This document shows, piece after piece, positions 3,627 to 48,608 of a stretch of DNA of 64,000 bases; position 1 is the stretch's first letter, and the number at the start of each line of letters is the position of its first letter. The DNA lies in IMG/VR virus record IMGVR_UViG_3300032291_001290, positions 1 through 64,000 of that record. One strand, written 5' to 3'. Made by a program: the position numbers and the translations under genes. The notes under the pieces are model-generated. The model was not told the DNA's origin and did no database searches. It saw nothing but the letters and a program-made list of their open reading frames with translations. This DNA is from a virus.

Positions 3627-3896
3627 ATGATAACATGGCCGTCTGACGAGGCAACAATAATTGAATACAAAGTCTATTCAATACTAATGGGCGATGTAGA
3701 AGACCCTGATTTGATGATTGCAGAACCAATTTATAAATGGCAACAAACAGAAGCAGGTAAGTATGTAATGAAAAATTCAGCTCCTACACCAATGTGGCGA
3801 AGGAGTGTTGATACGAATTCATATGGTCATCAGTATATGATATTCGCATACTTCACCCCAAAACAATTAACATATTATAAGTTGAAATACGAATGA
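3627..3896 (+). CDS. small hypothetical protein with C-terminal YYKLKYE tail (LxW-like)
   Basis: An 89-residue protein preceded by AAAAGGTAG as ribosome site. The N-terminal half is alpha/beta with a YKWQQTEAGKYV segment. The C-terminal half has MWRRSV, then a strand (YMIFAYFTPK) and the terminal QLTYYKLKYE. The terminal pattern resembles the (F/Y)xLKW tails of the 29.2-32.6 kb array with W replaced by Y. Family membership is a pattern-based inference and function is unknown. Its TGA overlaps the start of the epimerase gene. Confidence 0.6.
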   Translation: MITWPSDEATIIEYKVYSILMGDVEDPDLMIAEPIYKWQQTEAGKYVMKNSAPTPMWRRSVDTNSYGHQYMIFAYFTPKQLTYYKLKYE

Positions 3897-27939: not shown

Positions 27940-28533
27940 ATGGCAACTAGAAAACCCGCAGTACCTGTTGACGAGAAATTTGAAAAACAAGACTTTGATT
28001 TGTTTGATGCATTAGCGGCTATAGATAAAAAAGATTATGATTATTATGATAGGCTAACAGAAGAACAGCAACGAAAATTTGTAGCCTACATGATGATTCA
28101 TTGGACTAGTGCTATCAAAGGATCGTCTGAACTACAGCAGTACTATTTGCAAAGTATTGATTATCATGCTAACAAGTATTATTTCAATGAGAATGTACAG
28201 AAACATCCTAAACTACAATGGTTGATGTTGTGTGCAAGTAGTCCAGGAGTAGGAAAACAATTTCATCAATGGATACCCGGTATCAATCAAAAGGTAGGTA
28301 AATTAGAAGCACCTGCTAAATTAAAAGAAATTAAAGAATACTATAAAAAGATATATCCAAAAGCAATCGAATCTGATATCACCGAAGTATCTGAAATATT
28401 TGTAACGTCACATAAAAGAAAATGTCAATTAGCAAAACTATTTCCTAATCTAAAACAAACTGATATCGAAACATTAAATGAAGTTATAACTGATAAACAA
28501 ATTGCAGAATATGAAAGAGAACTTGGCAACTGA
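27940..28533 (+). CDS. possible clamp-loader small subunit (gp62-like)
   Basis: A 197-residue, nearly all-helical protein. The layout resembles T4 gp62: an N-terminal F-x-x-I-x-x-I-D-K-K segment (LFDALAAIDKKDYDYYDRL), a central N-rich helix, HPKLQWLMLCASSPGVGKQF followed by HQWIP (T4 has a basic KRYGKW at this point), then YYKKIYPKA and a final lysine-containing helix. No gp44 large subunit lies in the window, so the context does not confirm it. No ATPase motif; GVGK here is not in a P-loop context. Confidence 0.45.
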   Translation: MATRKPAVPVDEKFEKQDFDLFDALAAIDKKDYDYYDRLTEEQQRKFVAYMMIHWTSAIKGSSELQQYYLQSIDYHANKYYFNENVQKHPKLQWLMLCASSPGVGKQFHQWIPGINQKVGKLEAPAKLKEIKEYYKKIYPKAIESDITEVSEIFVTSHKRKCQLAKLFPNLKQTDIETLNEVITDKQIAEYERELGN

Positions 28534-29215
28534 TTTACCCGCAAAATACGGATGTGAGTTTTGCAAACGTGACTTCTTAAAAGAAAGCACAGTGTTAAAA
28601 CACGTATGTGAACACAAACGTAGATGGATGGAAAAAGACAAGCACGGAAATCGTTTAGGATTTCAGTCTTGGATTCAGTTTTATAAAAAGAATACTGCAA
28701 GTAAAAAACATAAAACCTACGAAGAATTTATCAGTAGCGCATACTATATTGCATTTGTAAAATTTGGTAATTACTGTGTGAATATCAATGCAGTAAACCC
28801 GAGCAGATTAGTAGATTGGTTACTAAAGAATCAAATTAAAATTGACAACTGGACTAGTGATTCAGTTTACACAAAATATTTGATAGACCATTTAAAAATT
28901 GAAGATGCATTTGATGCTATACATCGTAGTGTAGAACAATGTATAACTTTAGCAACTGATGCAGGTATACAACCCAATGACGTTTTACGATATGGCAATG
29001 TCAATAAAATTTGTTATGCGATTACATCTGGTAAAATTAGTCCTTGGATGTTGTACTGTAGTGACAGTGGTGTAAAATTTTTAGAATCATTAAATCCAGA
29101 TCAAGTTAAAATAATATCAGACTATATAAATCCAGAACAATGGGCATTGAAGTTTCATCGTGAACCAAATATTAAACAACAAATCCAAGATACTCTCAAA
29201 CAAGCAGGGTACTAG
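28511..29215 (+). CDS. zinc-finger protein, 234 aa
   Basis: Starts inside the end of the previous gene (ATG 28511, overlap 23 nt). Residues 13-40 carry a C2H2-like finger: CEFCKRDFLKESTVLKHVCE, followed by HKRRW. The rest is helical with RLVDWLLKNQ, a long middle region and NPEQWALKFHREP near the end. Probably binds DNA or a replisome protein. I remember similar finger-bearing proteins in marine T4-like phages but not their role. Confidence 0.7.
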   Translation: MKENLATDLPAKYGCEFCKRDFLKESTVLKHVCEHKRRWMEKDKHGNRLGFQSWIQFYKKNTASKKHKTYEEFISSAYYIAFVKFGNYCVNINAVNPSRLVDWLLKNQIKIDNWTSDSVYTKYLIDHLKIEDAFDAIHRSVEQCITLATDAGIQPNDVLRYGNVNKICYAITSGKISPWMLYCSDSGVKFLESLNPDQVKIISDYINPEQWALKFHREPNIKQQIQDTLKQAGY

Positions 29216-29396
29216 AGTACGCATACCCTGGAAGAAAGGTGATACTATTAGTGATTGGAACGAAACATGTGCATGGGCTATGGAACAGTTCGGATTACCC
29301 GGTACTAGATATTATACTCACTCAGTGGAAGATTACATGGACTTTTACTTTCACAAAGAAGAAGATGCTATTCATTTTAGTTTGAGGTGGTTATAA
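29160..29396 (+). CDS. LxW-tail mini-protein 1
   Basis: A 78-residue protein. The only plausible start is GTG 29160, inside the previous gene by 56 nt; the conserved part begins near residue 18. The pattern WNETCAWAMEQFGLPGTRYY, then DYMDFYFHKEEDAIHF and the terminal SLRWL, matches members 4 and 9 of the array (W-N-E, helix, FG-x-P/R-G, strand, acidic turn, F-x-L-x-W). The codons for LRW (TTGAGGTGG) also form a possible Shine-Dalgarno for the radical SAM gene 4 nt downstream. Confidence 0.65.
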   Translation: MNQILNNKSKILSNKQGTRVRIPWKKGDTISDWNETCAWAMEQFGLPGTRYYTHSVEDYMDFYFHKEEDAIHFSLRWL

Positions 29397-29399
29397 ACT

Positions 29400-30629
29400 A
29401 TGGAACCAATTAAATGTGATTTAGCATTCGGCTCAGTCAATGTAGTAACAAACAACAATTATACAATTTGTTGCGTAGCTAGAGACTCCGTTCTTAATAA
29501 AAAACAAAATATCAGACTTCCGCACGTTGAAAAAATTAATGTTGAACCATTGCGTGAAATTCGCAGGTCACTTATAAACGGAGAGTTCCATTCAGCGTGT
29601 AGTAATTGCCAAGAAGGTGAAAAACTTTCTTCTATCTCACTGCGTACAATATGGAACAATGCATTAGAAAAATATAATATACCTATAACCGAGTTTGTTG
29701 ATCCTAATGATATGCGATACCTAAGTTATGCTTTTGGTAATAAGTGTAATAGTAAATGCATGATGTGTGGGCCGTCGAGTAGTGATTTATGGACAGATGA
29801 ATTTAATAAAATATGGTCTAAAACCCGACGTATTCAATTACCATTAGTAACACCCTCAAGCCAAATACATAAAAATAGCATCAGTGAAATGCTTGATACA
29901 TATCCAAACTTAGAACACATAACTTTATTGGGCGGAGAACCAACTATTATCGAAGAACATGTTTTCATGTTGGAAAAATTAATTAGTCAAAATAAAAGTA
30001 AAAATATTGAGTTGTCATATGTTACTAACTTGACAGGAATTAATGATGAATTAATTAATCTTTGGGGTAATTTTAAATCTGTTGGGTTTAATGTTTCAAT
30101 AGATGGATTTGATAAAGTTAATGAATACATTAGATATCCTTTTAAATGGAATAAAACTGATACCAACTTACGCACTATACTACAACATGCTAAAGACAAT
30201 AAATCAAAATTTAGTGCTAGTCTCAGTGCCACACTAAACCTTTATAACTGCATAGATATAGGAAATCTGATTGAGTATTGGTTTAATATTAGTAAAGAAT
30301 ACGATAATTTAAATTCAGGTATTTTAATTACTAGAGTAGTATATCCTGATTATACTAATTTAAATATTAGTTCAGTAGAACATCGTCAGCAAGGTAAACA
30401 AAAATTATTTGAGTTGTTGGACAAAATTAAAAAAGAACCCTATATTAATCCGTCGTATGAACAAAATATTAATTTAGTATTAGGACTTTTGGATGAACCA
30501 AAAACAACTAATGAAGCACTAATTAATGATGCAAAATATTTTATTACAGAGTCTGACAAATATAGAAATAGGAATATAAAAGATTTTATTCCTAAATTAT
30601 ATAATGACTTGTTTAAGGATAAAGATTAA
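29400..30629 (+). CDS. N-twitch radical SAM protein (second copy)
   Basis: A 409-residue paralogue of the 4854 protein with the same cysteine plan: N-terminal set C24, C25, C67, C70, and radical SAM CxxxCxxC at C116, C120, C123, followed by LGGEPT. It is inserted between mini-genes 1 and 2 of the LxW array, with ribosome site AGGTGG supplied by the end of mini-gene 1. No epimerase or aminotransferase is adjacent here, so its substrate may differ, possibly a small peptide such as an array product. Confidence 0.88.
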   Translation: MEPIKCDLAFGSVNVVTNNNYTICCVARDSVLNKKQNIRLPHVEKINVEPLREIRRSLINGEFHSACSNCQEGEKLSSISLRTIWNNALEKYNIPITEFVDPNDMRYLSYAFGNKCNSKCMMCGPSSSDLWTDEFNKIWSKTRRIQLPLVTPSSQIHKNSISEMLDTYPNLEHITLLGGEPTIIEEHVFMLEKLISQNKSKNIELSYVTNLTGINDELINLWGNFKSVGFNVSIDGFDKVNEYIRYPFKWNKTDTNLRTILQHAKDNKSKFSASLSATLNLYNCIDIGNLIEYWFNISKEYDNLNSGILITRVVYPDYTNLNISSVEHRQQGKQKLFELLDKIKKEPYINPSYEQNINLVLGLLDEPKTTNEALINDAKYFITESDKYRNRNIKDFIPKLYNDLFKDKD

Positions 30630-30884
30630 ATGTCACTTGAACAAGAACTAATGGAAAAAATGTCCAAAGAACTAGCAAAAGAAATTGACGAAGGTATTAT
30701 GTCAGACATGTTAATTGAGATTGGTTGGACTCCTGTTGAATTTTATTTTCAAGATAACTATCACGCTAACGATGTTAATTTTTGGTTGTTAAAACATTGC
30801 AAAAGTGATTGGCGTAGATTTGAAAAAAAATATTTGTTTGAAGATGTAAAAGAAGCTGAATGGTTCATATTGAGGTGGCTATGA
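30630..30884 (+). CDS. LxW-tail mini-protein 2
   Basis: An 84-residue protein beginning 0 nt after the radical SAM stop. The N-terminal half is charged and helical (MSLEQELMEKMSKELAKEI). The C-terminal half has VEFYFQDNYHANDVNFWLLK and ends EDVKEAEWFILRWL. The LRW codons (TTGAGGTGG) lie 1 nt before the next ATG (30881), placing a Shine-Dalgarno-like AGGTGG inside the conserved tail. Confidence 0.7.
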   Translation: MSLEQELMEKMSKELAKEIDEGIMSDMLIEIGWTPVEFYFQDNYHANDVNFWLLKHCKSDWRRFEKKYLFEDVKEAEWFILRWL

Positions 30885-31111
30885 ATAGCAAACAAAGACG
30901 CAAATCAAAACGTGCCCATCCTCATCATATTACTATCCATGCTCAATCAAATGAGATATACTTAGAGCATGATATAAAAGTAGTAAAGGCGTTTGAATGG
31001 TGCAAGAAAAAATGCAAAGGTCATGTTGCAAGAATTTACTTTCACGATAAAGCTATATTTAAATTTAGTAATCAAAAGGATGCAATGTATTTTGCATTGA
31101 AATGGATATGA
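30881..31111 (+). CDS. LxW-tail mini-protein 3
   Basis: A 76-residue basic protein (MNSKQRRKSKRAHPHHITIH) with start ATG overlapping the previous TGA. The C-terminal half is AFEWCKKKCKGHVARIYFHD, then FKFSNQKDAMYFALKWI. The helix with W-C, the F-x-F strand and the K-D-A turn before (F/Y)xLKW follow the array consensus. The following start ATG at 31102 is built from the AAATGG (K-W) codons. Confidence 0.7.
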   Translation: MNSKQRRKSKRAHPHHITIHAQSNEIYLEHDIKVVKAFEWCKKKCKGHVARIYFHDKAIFKFSNQKDAMYFALKWI

Positions 31112-31413
31112 TTAAAAAGCGTCAAATGACTAATAAATTATACGGGACTAACGGTGGCTGGGCCGCAATGCGTAATGTGAACCATGATGGTACAGGTAGT
31201 GTGTATGGTATGCCTTACCATCAAATAACTCCAATTGTGTCTAGCGGAGAATGGAATGAAATGGTTGAATGGTGTGTGTTTACATACGGACCAAGCGGTA
31301 CAGAAAATAAACCGGGAGTATGGACACCAAATGAAAGATGGTATGCTAATAATTCTAAGTTTTGGTTTAAAGACAAAAAAGATTGTGAATGGTTTTTGTT
31401 AAGATGGCAATGA
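31102..31413 (+). CDS. LxW-tail mini-protein 4
   Basis: A 103-residue protein; ATG 31102 lies in the K-W codons of the previous gene (a second ATG at 31108 overlaps its TGA). It contains GEWNEMVEWCVFTYGPSGTE, related to member 1, then a strand and the tail FWFKDKKDCEWFLLRWQ. The tail codons AAGATGGCAATGA hold both an AAGA-type ribosome site and the next ATG. Confidence 0.7.
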   Translation: MDMIKKRQMTNKLYGTNGGWAAMRNVNHDGTGSVYGMPYHQITPIVSSGEWNEMVEWCVFTYGPSGTENKPGVWTPNERWYANNSKFWFKDKKDCEWFLLRWQ

Positions 31414-31649
31414 CATATGTGCTTAATTATTTTGATGGTGCTAAAGGATGGGAAAATTCTAATCCAGGATGGCATGAAGCTATTATATACAATAACTCAC
31501 CCGATAAACATGAAAAAATGTTAGAATGGTTGTATAATAAAGTTGACAATGTTGAAAGACATGCTCGGTGGATTTGGTGCCAAGATCATGGTAAATTTAA
31601 ATTTAGATACGAGCGTGATTATATAATGTTTACATTAACATGGCAATAA
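31410..31649 (+). CDS. LxW-tail mini-protein 5
   Basis: A 79-residue protein starting on ATGA with the previous stop. HEKMLEWLYNKVDNVERHAR, WIWCQDHGKFKF and the tail YERDYIMFTLTWQ match the array consensus. The codons for T-W-Q-stop (ACATGGCAATAA) contain the next start ATG at 31640, out of frame by one. Confidence 0.7.
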   Translation: MTYVLNYFDGAKGWENSNPGWHEAIIYNNSPDKHEKMLEWLYNKVDNVERHARWIWCQDHGKFKFRYERDYIMFTLTWQ

Positions 31650-31864
31650 CTATTAAACTCAAAGATCGGCTACAGGCTGAAGAAGAACAATGGCTAGCAA
31701 AGAACATAGGACCTAGAATGCATTATCTTCATAATAGCATAGGGGGTCAAGGCTGGATAGTTAAAATGGAAAAGTATTCAAGGTATGATGTACCTAATAC
31801 TTGGACGTTAACATTAGAAGATGATAGATATGCTACAATTTTTTTATTAATGTTTCCGCAATGA
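31640..31864 (+). CDS. LxW-array mini-protein 6 (divergent tail)
   Basis: A 74-residue protein with the start built from the previous W codon (ATGGCAATAACT, MAIT). The body shows EEQWLAKNIGPRM, a W-containing middle and the tail RYATIFLLMFPQ, in which L-x-F replaces LxW. Included by position, size and junction logic rather than tail identity. Confidence 0.6.
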   Translation: MAITIKLKDRLQAEEEQWLAKNIGPRMHYLHNSIGGQGWIVKMEKYSRYDVPNTWTLTLEDDRYATIFLLMFPQ

Positions 31865-32142
31865 CTAATATACCTAAATCTTTTCAAGATTATGACGATA
31901 ATGATCCTATGATAGAGCATAGAAAGAACCGTTGGAAGTATTGGGAAGCGTTAAAAATTGTGCGTAAAGAATATATGGCATCATTGAATAAGGTAGATAG
32001 CCAGTTTGATGCCTATGACTTTGAGGATTATCTTGAAGCCAATTATGGAATAAAGATGAACATAGTAAACGGAAACATTACTGATGGGTATAAGATTATG
32101 GATGAGAAAAAATATATAATATTTTTATTAAAGTATCAATGA
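31861..32142 (+). CDS. LxW-array mini-protein 7 (LKYQ tail)
   Basis: A 93-residue protein joined to both neighbours by ATGA overlaps (CAATGA junctions). Helical N-terminus (MIEHRKNRWKYWEALKIV), acidic loop, then a strand and the tail MDEKKYIIFLLKYQ. W of the consensus is Y. Function unknown. Confidence 0.65.
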   Translation: MTNIPKSFQDYDDNDPMIEHRKNRWKYWEALKIVRKEYMASLNKVDSQFDAYDFEDYLEANYGIKMNIVNGNITDGYKIMDEKKYIIFLLKYQ

Positions 32143-32351
32143 TTAATCTTAAACTAGAAATATCTGCGGCAAAAGCAATAGAACGAGCAAATGAATTGCG
32201 TGAAGCTGGCTATGTTCAGGGTATAGACTTTGATTTTAGATATCATCCTAGTACACAGGATTACTATAACGGACCAATTAAACATAGCTTTGTGCTGTTT
32301 CACTTTTACAAAGAATCATTAGCAACTTATTATGGATTAAAATGGCAATAA
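32139..32351 (+). CDS. LxW-tail mini-protein 8
   Basis: A 70-residue protein. The helix ISAAKAIERANELREAGYVQ is followed by a strand and the tail HFYKESLATYYGLKWQ. The tail codons AAATGGCAATAA again hold the next ATG (32342), the same 10-nt junction as at 31640. Confidence 0.7.
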   Translation: MINLKLEISAAKAIERANELREAGYVQGIDFDFRYHPSTQDYYNGPIKHSFVLFHFYKESLATYYGLKWQ

Positions 32352-32626
32352 CAAAACTTACAGGTACGTTTGTACCAATACCGATCAGAAAAGATGAAAT
32401 TGATTATGTGATCCATGACCGTAATTATATGGGTAGTGGAAACAGAACATCATATGTATATGAGTGTAAAAAGAAAAAAGAAGATCCGGCTGTAATCGTA
32501 AAATGGTGTAGACGTAATTTTGGGGAAAGAGGTAGTGGTTGGGACTTTCTTTTAACGTCAGGAAATGTTACAATCATCATATGGGAAGACAAATTTAAAA
32601 CTATGTATGAACTCTGGCAACGTTAA
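32342..32626 (+). CDS. LxW-array mini-protein 9 (ELWQR tail)
   Basis: A 94-residue protein beginning MAIT through the K-W-Q-stop junction. The middle has EDPAVIVKWCRRNFGERGSG, which parallels the W-C helix and F-G-x-x-G turn of members 1 and 4, and the tail is FKTMYELWQR. The Q-R extension is unique in the array. It overlaps the next gene by 20 nt. Confidence 0.65.
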   Translation: MAITKLTGTFVPIPIRKDEIDYVIHDRNYMGSGNRTSYVYECKKKKEDPAVIVKWCRRNFGERGSGWDFLLTSGNVTIIIWEDKFKTMYELWQR

Positions 32627-32975
32627 TCTTTGTGAGGTGCGACAAATAAAAGATAGATATTCAGTTACCTGGAATAAGCACATTACTGGATTAAGTGTTT
32701 TTAGTGAGAAGGCTATAATTTTACTTGACATGATTATCAGAGATAGTAAATCTTGGGAAATAGGTATTCATTTGAGTAATGGTTATGTCTTGTGGATGAG
32801 TTGCACATTATTAAACACAATGGATACTGGACTATTAGCTGAGTATCTACAACATGCAGGCAATATAAAACATCCCGATGAAATTATAGGTGCAGTGTTT
32901 GACAACATGGATGATGTTGAAATCTTCACTAAACGATTAGAACAAAAATATATATGGCATGTGTTGAAACAATGA
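32607..32975 (+). CDS. array-terminal hypothetical protein, 122 aa
   Basis: The ATG at 32607 lies within the tail region of mini-gene 9. It is longer, with a different body (VTWNKHITGLSVFSEKAIIL and a GIHLSNGYVLWMS strand) and the tail QKYIWHVLKQ. It shares the K-Q-stop/ATGA junction (CAATGA) with the following endonuclease VII gene. It may be a distant member of the family or simply use the same junction. Function unknown. Confidence 0.55.
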   Translation: MNSGNVNLCEVRQIKDRYSVTWNKHITGLSVFSEKAIILLDMIIRDSKSWEIGIHLSNGYVLWMSCTLLNTMDTGLLAEYLQHAGNIKHPDEIIGAVFDNMDDVEIFTKRLEQKYIWHVLKQ

Positions 32976-33361
32976 ATAGTAAAAGATGTAATCGTTGTAA
33001 AGAAATAAAACTATTATCAGACTTTGGTAATGATAGTGGTGGTAAAAAACTACGGTCTGATTGTAGAGCATGTGACAGTATACTGGCTAAAGAACGTAGT
33101 GAAATAAAAAAAACTGCACCGTCAATACCTAACAATCATGTTTGTCCCATTTGTGAACAAACAGAAGAACAATTGAATGAAAACATTAATCCAACACTAC
33201 GCAAAAAAGGAAGACCATGGGTGATGGATCACAATCACGAACTAAAAACATTTCGCGGATGGTTATGTAGAAAGTGCAATTTGGGATGTGGTAATTTTAA
33301 AGACAATCCCGAACTATTAGACAAAGCGGCAACATATTTAAGGAATACACAAAATGGCTGA
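32972..33361 (+). CDS. 49: recombination endonuclease VII
   Basis: Resolves branched DNA (Holliday junctions, flaps) before packaging. The 129-residue protein (T4 gp49 157) has a zinc-binding treble-clef with C58/C61 and C99/C102, and the His-Asn core DHNH (86-89) in WVMDHNHELKTFRGWLCRKC. A CxxC pair near the N-terminus (C6, C9) and a second near 31-34 may form an extra zinc finger not found in T4. The start ATG overlaps the previous stop (CAATGA), so it is co-translated with the array. Confidence 0.9.
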   Translation: MNSKRCNRCKEIKLLSDFGNDSGGKKLRSDCRACDSILAKERSEIKKTAPSIPNNHVCPICEQTEEQLNENINPTLRKKGRPWVMDHNHELKTFRGWLCRKCNLGCGNFKDNPELLDKAATYLRNTQNG

Positions 33362-33902
33362 TATAATGATTGACATTGAGAGTTTGAATACAACACCTGA
33401 TTGTGTTATCTTAACTATTGGTGCAGTATTATTCGATCCAAAAGGTAATGGTATCTTGGATAAGATTGAATTACGCCCTACAATTGAGGATCAAACAGAA
33501 ACATATAATCGTACTATTAATGAAGATACACTGCGTTGGTGGGGTACACAAAGTGAGGCGGCACAAGAAGAAGCACTAGGTGATCGTGATAGAATGTCAT
33601 TCAAAGAGTGTATGGAGAAGTTATACAAGTTCTGTTGGAATCAAGGTAAACCATGGAGTCATGGTGCGCCGTTTGACATTGTTGTTATGGAACATGCTTG
33701 GAGACAACATAGTCAACTAGCACCCTGGCCCTATTATAATGTTAGAGACACACGTACATTGTTTGATATTGCAGGTGTTAGTCTTAAAGACGGTGGCCAT
33801 GTCACTAGTCACAAAGCAGTAGAAGATGCAGAACGACAGGCTATTGTTGTGCAACAAGCATATATGAAATTAATGAAAGCAGGATTGGTAACACCACGAT
33901 GA
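33354..33902 (+). CDS. dexA: DexA-type 3'-5' exonuclease
   Basis: DEDDh exonuclease that degrades DNA 3' to 5'. The 182-residue protein carries Exo I DIES (D7, E9), Exo II HGAPFDI (D108) and Exo III HKAVEDAERQA (H153, D158). T4 DexA is 227 residues; this is a compact version. Starts inside the endonuclease VII stop region (AAATGGCTGA), another W/G-type coupled junction, and overlaps the next gene by 4 nt. Confidence 0.88.
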   Translation: MADIMIDIESLNTTPDCVILTIGAVLFDPKGNGILDKIELRPTIEDQTETYNRTINEDTLRWWGTQSEAAQEEALGDRDRMSFKECMEKLYKFCWNQGKPWSHGAPFDIVVMEHAWRQHSQLAPWPYYNVRDTRTLFDIAGVSLKDGGHVTSHKAVEDAERQAIVVQQAYMKLMKAGLVTPR

Positions 33903-47236: not shown

Positions 47237-47326
47237 TCCTTAAGATAAATATATAATACGCTTGCATTCGGCAAGTTTATGCAGTACCCACTGCGTAGCG
47301 GCTAGAACCCGCTAATTTTATAAGGA
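47237..47326 (+). promoter_or_regulatory. late promoter and three-hairpin leader with ribosome-site pairing
   Basis: Octamer GATAAATA (47244-47251). Hairpins: CTTGC/GCAAG (47261-47275), GCAGT/ACTGC (47281-47294), TAGCGG/CCGCTA (47296-47314). TCCTTA (47237-47242), just upstream of the octamer, complements TAAGGA (47321-47326), the ribosome site of 47334. Confidence 0.6.
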
Positions 47327-47333
47327 AAATCAA

Positions 47334-48608
47334 ATGGGACGTCCTCTAAAAATCGCAAAGGCTCAAGCAGTCTTACCAATTACTGATACAGCCGCAACAG
47401 GCAGTATCGTCACAATATCAGGTGGAAATTTAACTACTTCACCTACAGTTGGTATCGCTAAAGGTATGCCATTCGTAGTTGCTACTACAGTTGGTGGTTT
47501 AACTGCCGGTGTGACATACTATGTTAGTTCAATTTTATCAAACACAACGTTTGTTGCGGCAACTACTGATCCTAGTGTTCAACCACAAGTTTTAGCTACA
47601 TTAACTGACACAACAAGTGGGTCAGTATTAGCATCTTTTGCTGTTGTTGATGCATATTTCAACAATCCAAACGGTGGTGCTGGTTTCCCAGCAACAAACG
47701 CTAACACATATTCTGTAGTTGGTGGTAACATAGCTATCGTTGGTCCTCAAGTATTAGCACAAGTTGCTATTGGTATCAATGGTACAGGTACATTGTACAC
47801 ACCATTGACAGTTAATACTAGCAATGTGGTAGTGGGTGTAGGCACTGATCTTGCTAATTTAACTACGGGTGCGGCATTACAAATTGCCCAAGCTAACATC
47901 AACGGTAGTACCGATTTTGTTAATTTAGGTTTCGGAAGTGCTACAAAAGGTAACGTTACTGTAGTTGTTGCTAACACAACGGTATCAGGTAATGTTATCG
48001 GAACTTCAGGCAATGCTCAAACTCTTATTGTAGATATGCCAATCGCATTTGATGCAACATTTGGTGGTTTAACTTCAGGTACAACATACTTTGTTAAAAC
48101 TATTGCTAATGCTGCCGCTTTCACGGTATCAGCTTCACAAGGTGGCGAACCGGTAGCTCTTACAGCTAATGCATCTGTAACCGGTAATGCAATTATGAAT
48201 CGTGTTGTTTTAACTGCTAATGCTAACGTTGTTGCAAGTAATGCGGCATATGTATATGCAAACGATGAAGCTGGTTTTATTGTTCGTCAAAAAGGCAAAC
48301 AAAAATATCTAGTAACAGGTTCAGCAAGTGGTTTAACAGCACAGTGCTTTACAGCTAATCTTGCAAACACAGCATTGACTCCAAACACAATGCGTATTCT
48401 TGCTACATATGCTAACAGTGCTACTCAAACAGTGCAAAGTCTTTCTGATCACACTGGTGAGTTGTTTACTGCTACATCAGGTCCAATCGCAACGGGTAAC
48501 ATTGTATTCCAAAATGCTACTCCAGTATTTGCTACATTCAATACAGCAGAAGCGGCAAATACATACGGTGGTCAGCCTTATGAAATCGTACAAATTGCTA
48601 ACGCCTAA
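47334..48608 (+). CDS. structural protein, 424 aa, fibre or spike type
   Basis: Starts MGRPLKIAKAQAVLPITD; the body is Val/Thr/Ala/Asn-rich beta with GGLTAGVTYYVSSI and a similar GGLTSGTTYFVKTI repeat. Central FIVRQKGKQKYLVTGSASG. No lysine-rich or charged domain. Late promoter with a large structured leader. Probably a fibre-associated or decoration protein. Confidence 0.65.
   Translation: MGRPLKIAKAQAVLPITDTAATGSIVTISGGNLTTSPTVGIAKGMPFVVATTVGGLTAGVTYYVSSILSNTTFVAATTDPSVQPQVLATLTDTTSGSVLASFAVVDAYFNNPNGGAGFPATNANTYSVVGGNIAIVGPQVLAQVAIGINGTGTLYTPLTVNTSNVVVGVGTDLANLTTGAALQIAQANINGSTDFVNLGFGSATKGNVTVVVANTTVSGNVIGTSGNAQTLIVDMPIAFDATFGGLTSGTTYFVKTIANAAAFTVSASQGGEPVALTANASVTGNAIMNRVVLTANANVVASNAAYVYANDEAGFIVRQKGKQKYLVTGSASGLTAQCFTANLANTALTPNTMRILATYANSATQTVQSLSDHTGELFTATSGPIATGNIVFQNATPVFATFNTAEAANTYGGQPYEIVQIANA

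Follow-up and report, generated by a model that had tools for sequence, protein, structure and literature searches.

The DNA considered here is a window of 64,000 nucleotides (positions 1 to 64,000 of the IMG/VR virus record IMGVR_UViG_3300032291_001290, which counts 101,416 bases), and the system in question is an array of small genes lying head-to-tail on its plus strand between 29160 and 32975. The array proteins form one undescribed family, which is recognized by a conserved tail at the extreme C-terminus. A 19-residue profile of this tail, built from the window and related sequences, was run on every open reading frame (ORF) of 166 loci (1.55 Mb). In the window, it retrieves seven firm members (ORFs listed from 29160, 30630, 30860, 31102, 31389, 31861 and 32139) with E-values from 2e-7 to 1.5e-4. 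An earlier note on this DNA had counted ten such genes; their order and place stand, whereas membership is reduced to seven firm members, two probable ones and one non-member. The radical S-adenosylmethionine (SAM) gene said to split the array is indeed found at 29400-30629.

Gene A (29160-29396; 78 residues if its GTG start holds; E 2e-7) overlaps the upstream zinc-finger gene and ends in ..FYFHKEEDAIHFSLRWL, with TTGAGGTGG at 29382-29390; an ortholog is present in 96 of 122 loci. Beyond the radical SAM gene, gene B (30630-30884; 84 residues; E 4e-5) ends in ..EAEWFILRWL, and its joint TTGAGGTGGCTATGA (30870-30884) codes for Leu-Arg-Trp-Leu-stop while holding both GAGGTG and the ATG of gene C at 30881. 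Genes C (30881-31111; 76 residues; tail ..KDAMYFALKWI), D (31108-31413; 101 residues; WC..FG helix; tail ..KDCEWFLLRWQ) and E (31410-31649; 79 residues; tail ..RDYIMFTLTWQ; E 2e-6) follow. The starts listed for them (30860, 31102 and 31389) probably lie too far upstream, since an N-terminus such as 'MVHIEV' is the preceding tail read in another frame; the ATGs that overlap the previous stop codon (30881, 31108 and 31410) are preferred.

Gene F (31640-31864; 74 residues; tail ..YATIFLLMFPQ) is a probable divergent member with a borderline score (E 1.8), the orthologs of which do belong to the family set. It is followed by gene G (31861-32142; 93 residues; tail ..DEKKYIIFLLKYQ; E 1.5e-4), gene H (32139-32351; 70 residues; tail ..SLATYYGLKWQ) and gene I (32342-32626; 94 residues), a second probable divergent member with a WCRRNFG helix, a tail ..FKTMYELWQR and an E-value of 0.0012 on its first half. 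The ORF ending the array (32637-32975, listed from 32565) has neither a tail profile match nor a family tail and is not counted as a member. Elsewhere in the window, ORFs 919-1179 (..AVFYELTWS) and 3627-3896 (..LTYYKLKYE) carry similar tails and were dropped by the refined profile; a scan of the collection yielded one relative of the former, in locus L302.

Across the 166 loci, the tail profile (E<0.1) matches 734 of 4,137 plus-strand ORFs, 733 of these matches lying within three residues of the C-terminus, whereas none of 4,528 minus-strand ORFs matches even at E<1. Given this contrast and the terminal position of the matches, chance is excluded. Profile iteration extends it to 858 ORFs (547 unique), grouped in 61 clusters at 40% identity and sharing the signature F-x-F-x(4)-D/A-..-F-x-L-R/K-W a few residues from the stop codon. 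The source loci are metagenomic contigs, and related loci, including the 80 slots compared below, are mutually non-independent.

The relationship extends beyond the tail. Indeed, profile-profile comparison connects most large clusters, with up to 99% probability across 84-89 columns, and four cluster pairs still exceed 86% probability after removal of the last 19 residues. AlphaFold predictions were made for two members: gene H (18 orthologs; model md4cae5f94b40) is modelled as beta-alpha-beta-beta-alpha with a predicted local distance difference test score (pLDDT) of 90, and gene D (17 sequences; model m02d79a86f989; pLDDT 77) as the same core with an extra strand and a disordered N-terminus. 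The tail corresponds to the last strand and the last helix of the predicted fold. Far from having unrelated folds, which the earlier note would have taken as evidence against a family, these two divergent members are thus predicted to have a common core.

No named family in Pfam, PHROGs, NCBIfam, PADLOC or the PDB sequences fits these proteins. Foldseek against the PDB returned only weak ferredoxin-like matches (PII, CutA; template-modelling (TM) score about 0.5; best E 0.43), and neither RNA recognition motif (RRM) proteins nor named ferredoxin-like families gave a significant profile or fold match in Pfam or by Foldseek in the PDB. Among predicted viral structures, A0A6J5LU58, A0A6J5KVQ9 and A0A6J5L8G4 match gene H with TM scores of 0.84-0.87; these proteins of uncultured Caudovirales phages, devoid of name or function, are probably unannotated members. 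The 32139 profile also matched pentatricopeptide proteins of the PDB, but only through helices of 17-18 residues repeated along the chains, none significant alone, and these matches were ignored. For long-bodied members, no known N-terminal domain was recovered. Two long members (L248:4433-4768 and L034:7642-7983) display, before the family tail, a Walker A-like stretch (NIGRQTGKST and AAGRQSGKS, respectively) that recalls the ATPase of terminase; no significant match emerged from PHROGs or Pfam.

The codons of the tail depend on what follows the gene. They were counted on redundancy-reduced members, and the test was rerun on anchor-gene loci only since some loci had been collected through a pattern requiring Trp. 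When the next ATG overlaps the stop codon, the Arg of Leu-Arg-Trp is encoded by AGG in 83 of 131 cases (63%), against 5 of 37 (14%) when no start lies within 15 nucleotides (p 5e-8); Leu is encoded by TTG in 111 of 158 and 15 of 51 cases, respectively (p 4e-7). In the rest of the family proteins, Arg is written AGG in 7% of cases and Leu is written TTG in 21%. Within TTG-AGG-TGG lies GAGGTG, which is complementary to the anti-Shine-Dalgarno sequence. A Shine-Dalgarno match of at least six nucleotides stands before 41% of the ATGA joints of family genes and before 6% of the remaining ATGA joints in these loci. The Trp itself is kept in 50 of 53 members having no start within 15 nucleotides downstream. 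As Trp is kept without a following gene and the codons vary with the junction, the conservation of the amino acids serves the protein, and the choice of codons serves the gene downstream. The possibility, raised in the earlier note, that codon bias of the junction alone explains the tails therefore fails, as Trp stays where no gene follows; the junction nonetheless imposes a strong synonymous bias, in the form of a Shine-Dalgarno site within the tail. A ribosome-binding site embedded in the last codons is a well-supported reading of these counts.

The array occupies a hyperplastic slot inside a replication block, the slot extending from the zinc-finger gene to the exonuclease gene or to the next gene. 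In a survey of 91 non-redundant examples, slot length ranges from 2 base pairs to 7.1 kb, and the content consists of 0 to 15 family members (median 5) together with assorted cargo. Among relatives, array genes are gained and lost and the flanks remain constant. When 80 slots were compared pairwise, 80% of interior homology-block ends proved to lie no more than 20 nucleotides from the stop codon of a family gene, against 11% for random positions. The final 45 nucleotides of family genes contain 53% of the block starts, against 13% for random positions. For example, locus L013, the zinc-finger protein of which is 93% identical, lacks gene C and passes from the tail of gene B, conserved up to the ATGA, directly to gene D. 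In locus L012 (zinc-finger protein 97% identical), other genes replace gene C and similarity resumes within the tail of C. Both loci have an extra member after gene A, flanked at both ends by GAGGTGGCTAT. Exchange of whole cassettes is well supported by these alignments.

The ratio of nonsynonymous to synonymous substitution rates (dN/dS) is 0.13-0.31 for array genes versus 0.05-0.13 for the flanking core genes. Gene G is the slowest-evolving member (0.13), is widely retained, contains 'YGIKM...YKIMDEKKY' and may serve a fixed role. The view that the array is a diversity cassette, made of a single family that evolves fast, has expanded in place and belongs to no named family, is supported by the common predicted fold, the profile-profile links, a dN/dS several-fold that of the replication core, the gene-by-gene turnover and the lack of a fit in Pfam, PHROGs, NCBIfam and PADLOC. 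In a crude scan, the array displays 28 promoter-like sites where 33 are expected from shuffled sequences, and two terminator-like sites where 2.5 are expected; being at or below expectation, these numbers are consistent with a single operon.

The left border of the slot is a zinc-finger-type protein gene conserved in jumbo phages (28529-29215, plus strand), and the right border encodes an Rv2179c-like 3'-5' exonuclease (33354-33902, plus strand; PF16473, E 6e-33). Neighbouring genes encode the UvsW helicase (25947), a protein read here as clamp-loader-like without a Pfam match (27940) and an endonuclease VII-like HNH protein (32954; PF02945). This block order matches that of the jumbo phages RaK2, PA5oct, SCTP-2, Atu_ph07 and Phosso; the window therefore most likely derives from a jumbo phage. 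Farther downstream, a freshwater-2 RNA, a predicted cis-regulatory RNA, is found at 47260-47336 (Rfam RF02980, 65 bits), upstream of a gene at 47334.

The family extends beyond the array of the window and its lineage, arrays occurring in giant phages from both freshwater and soil. In the cultured Sinorhizobium phage Phosso (469 kb), at least 40 members were counted; several stand in tandem arrays linked by ATGA, and in one of these arrays the joint TTGAGGTGGCTATGA recurs identically. Two IMG/VR records, 364 and 344 kb long, hold 29 and 19 members, respectively, and Atu_ph07 holds four. PA5oct, with two weak matches, and RaK2 and SCTP-2, in which no member was found, were rejected as holders of the family. 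A pattern scan of viral contigs retrieved at least 120 stretches; among the matches listed, nearly all loci hold members and most hold several. In cellular genomes (84,980 prokaryote species), a pattern scan gave 11 matches, none of which was convincing or was recovered as an ORF ending there. In the literature on jumbo phages, whether general or devoted to Atu_ph07 or to a Sinorhizobium jumbo phage, the passages searched do not mention the family. An Atu_ph07 ORF of 109 residues (L010:9956-10285), unannotated in the GenBank record, combines the family WC helix with an F-F-F-F-x-x-K-S-D stretch. In Phosso, the arrays (L303-L305, L009) stand amid transfer RNA genes and genes of translation or proteolysis, such as those for an IF-1-like protein, threonyl-tRNA synthetase, ribosome recycling factor and Clp.

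The array is rather likely to be a plug-in cassette island, in which small proteins of a binding type, sharing a fixed tail, are encoded by exchangeable cassettes. Each cassette would encode one protein of 60-110 residues, folded as a single domain around a ferredoxin-like beta-alpha-beta-beta-alpha core. The signature F-x-F-x(4)-D/A-x(2-3)-F-x-L-R/K-W would be fixed as the last strand and last helix, and the other surfaces would be free to diverge. As the DNA for Leu-Arg-Trp-x-stop often includes GAGGTG and an overlapping ATGA start, a cassette would supply its successor with a ribosome-binding site and a start. With the start signals of the successor carried along, the operon would stay expressed whenever a cassette was gained, lost or exchanged for another, and exchange would take place at the 3' ends that the cassettes share. 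Translational coupling via the embedded site and recombination via the tails may be inferred on this basis. No catalytic signature was seen in the family proteins, and their accessory location, divergence and turnover prompt the guess that they might constitute a rotating set of binding proteins against host or rival-phage targets, for take-over or counter-defence; the host-directed factors suggested in the earlier note are thus a plausible reading.

A stronger version, which is possible but doubtful, would see a self-propagating cassette system in which the same C-terminal codons serve as closing helix, ribosome-binding site and recombination joint, so that jumbo phages could assemble and recombine operons that encode binding proteins by the tens, as a repertoire kept ready against host defences; the copies located away from the main slot, which also number in the tens, would belong to it.

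Several observations weigh against the cassette island. Gene C ends in TTGAAATGG, a joint without an embedded Shine-Dalgarno site, and as many other joints also lack it, the site is common and not obligatory. Phosso frequently has Thr or Ala in place of the Arg of LRW and matches GAGGTG less regularly. Any gene-by-gene exchange would also be expected to leave breakpoints at gene ends, and the breakpoint statistics (80% and 53%) are affected by the conserved tails, which lengthen alignments, and by the non-independence of the 80 slots. The dN/dS values, being well below 1, indicate evolution that is fast yet purifying. No defence link or target was found, and the nine small proteins match no PADLOC model, in a library without counter-defence proteins.

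Among the other explanations, the array might be selfish or neutral clutter, generated by duplication and drift because the tail renders insertion harmless. High turnover and strong divergence are in line with this idea, which is nevertheless unlikely as all testable members have dN/dS values (0.13-0.31) that indicate purifying selection, and genes A, D, G, H and I are retained across many loci. Somewhat less likely still, the proteins could be RNA-binding, RRM-like regulators, comparable to RegA, tuning phage or host translation. Their predicted order of elements is that of an RRM minus its last strand, and the F-x(5)-A-x(2)-F spacing is like that of strand 3 and helix 2 in an RRM; however, no RRM was matched in Pfam or PDB sequence searches, and the exposed aromatic positions of the ribonucleoprotein (RNP) motifs are, in our reading, not conserved.

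The radical SAM gene inside the array brings in a third alternative, in which the small proteins would be precursor peptides modified at the C-terminal Arg-Trp or Lys-Trp, as in ribosomally synthesized and post-translationally modified peptides (RiPPs). The encoded protein is weakly similar to cyclophane-forming maturases, but its top match is to the twitch-domain subfamily NF033640 (E 1e-78; also PF04055), which is no maturase, and the motif would be embedded within a well-folded helix. Moreover, radical SAM-like genes occur in only 7 of the 91 slots, without the consistent maturase-precursor pairing of RiPP systems. A partnership with the small proteins is ruled out by this survey, the gene is best regarded as incidental cargo, and the RiPP-like alternative is very improbable. 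The protein is also weakly similar to viperin (PADLOC pVip, E 1e-8), and the corresponding slot of locus L017 includes three radical SAM-like genes. Finally, it is scarcely credible that the LRW tail is a mere by-product, in unrelated proteins, of selection for a ribosome site and an ATGA overlap: GAGGTG within TTG-AGG-TGG is strongly favoured at overlapping joints, but the class without a downstream start, which keeps Trp (50/53) and Arg/Lys, refutes this as the sole cause, conservation covers about 19 residues (F-x-F...A..F-x-L), and the predicted fold and profile-profile links reach beyond the tail.

These results mark out a gene family of giant phages that is large, with hundreds of members (at least 40 of them in one cultured phage), and that has escaped annotation. 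The cassette island would also give a concrete molecular reason for the growth and reshuffling of arrays of tiny genes, as the end of one gene would carry the start signal of the next, and this idea is directly testable because Phosso is cultured and shows the same joints. If the proteins were indeed take-over or counter-defence factors, the tail would become a simple search key for hundreds of them.

The closest mechanistic comparison is with PeSL cassettes, which reportedly rely on short repeats at gene joints and on modular shuffling in plastic regions related to those of T4. PeSLs are said to be composite promoter-terminator motifs located between genes. The array likewise shows gene-by-gene exchange at repeated joints. 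However, its joint is intragenic with a ribosome site, whereas PeSL joints are intergenic promoter-terminators; its cassettes are all of one protein family, and sites resembling the promoters and stem-loop terminators that would mark every joint of a PeSL array are no more common in it than in shuffled sequences. As its joint is intragenic and translational, the array is not of the PeSL kind, though it works alike. The PeSLs, mobile regulatory cassettes in T4-type phages, are cited (Arbiol 2010; Comeau 2014) in PMC4503421.

The hyperplastic regions of T4-like phages contain variable small accessory genes within a conserved replication core (PMC3797505). The array is also a block of variable small genes in such a core; unlike these regions, it consists mostly of one fixed-tail family that recurs elsewhere in jumbo genomes. 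In Bacillus phage G, passages of PMC7824862 describe a lineage-specific expansion of a zinc ribbon to about 35 copies, and the passages searched do not name the present family. The domain itself is different, but in both cases a small domain has been greatly multiplied in a jumbo phage.

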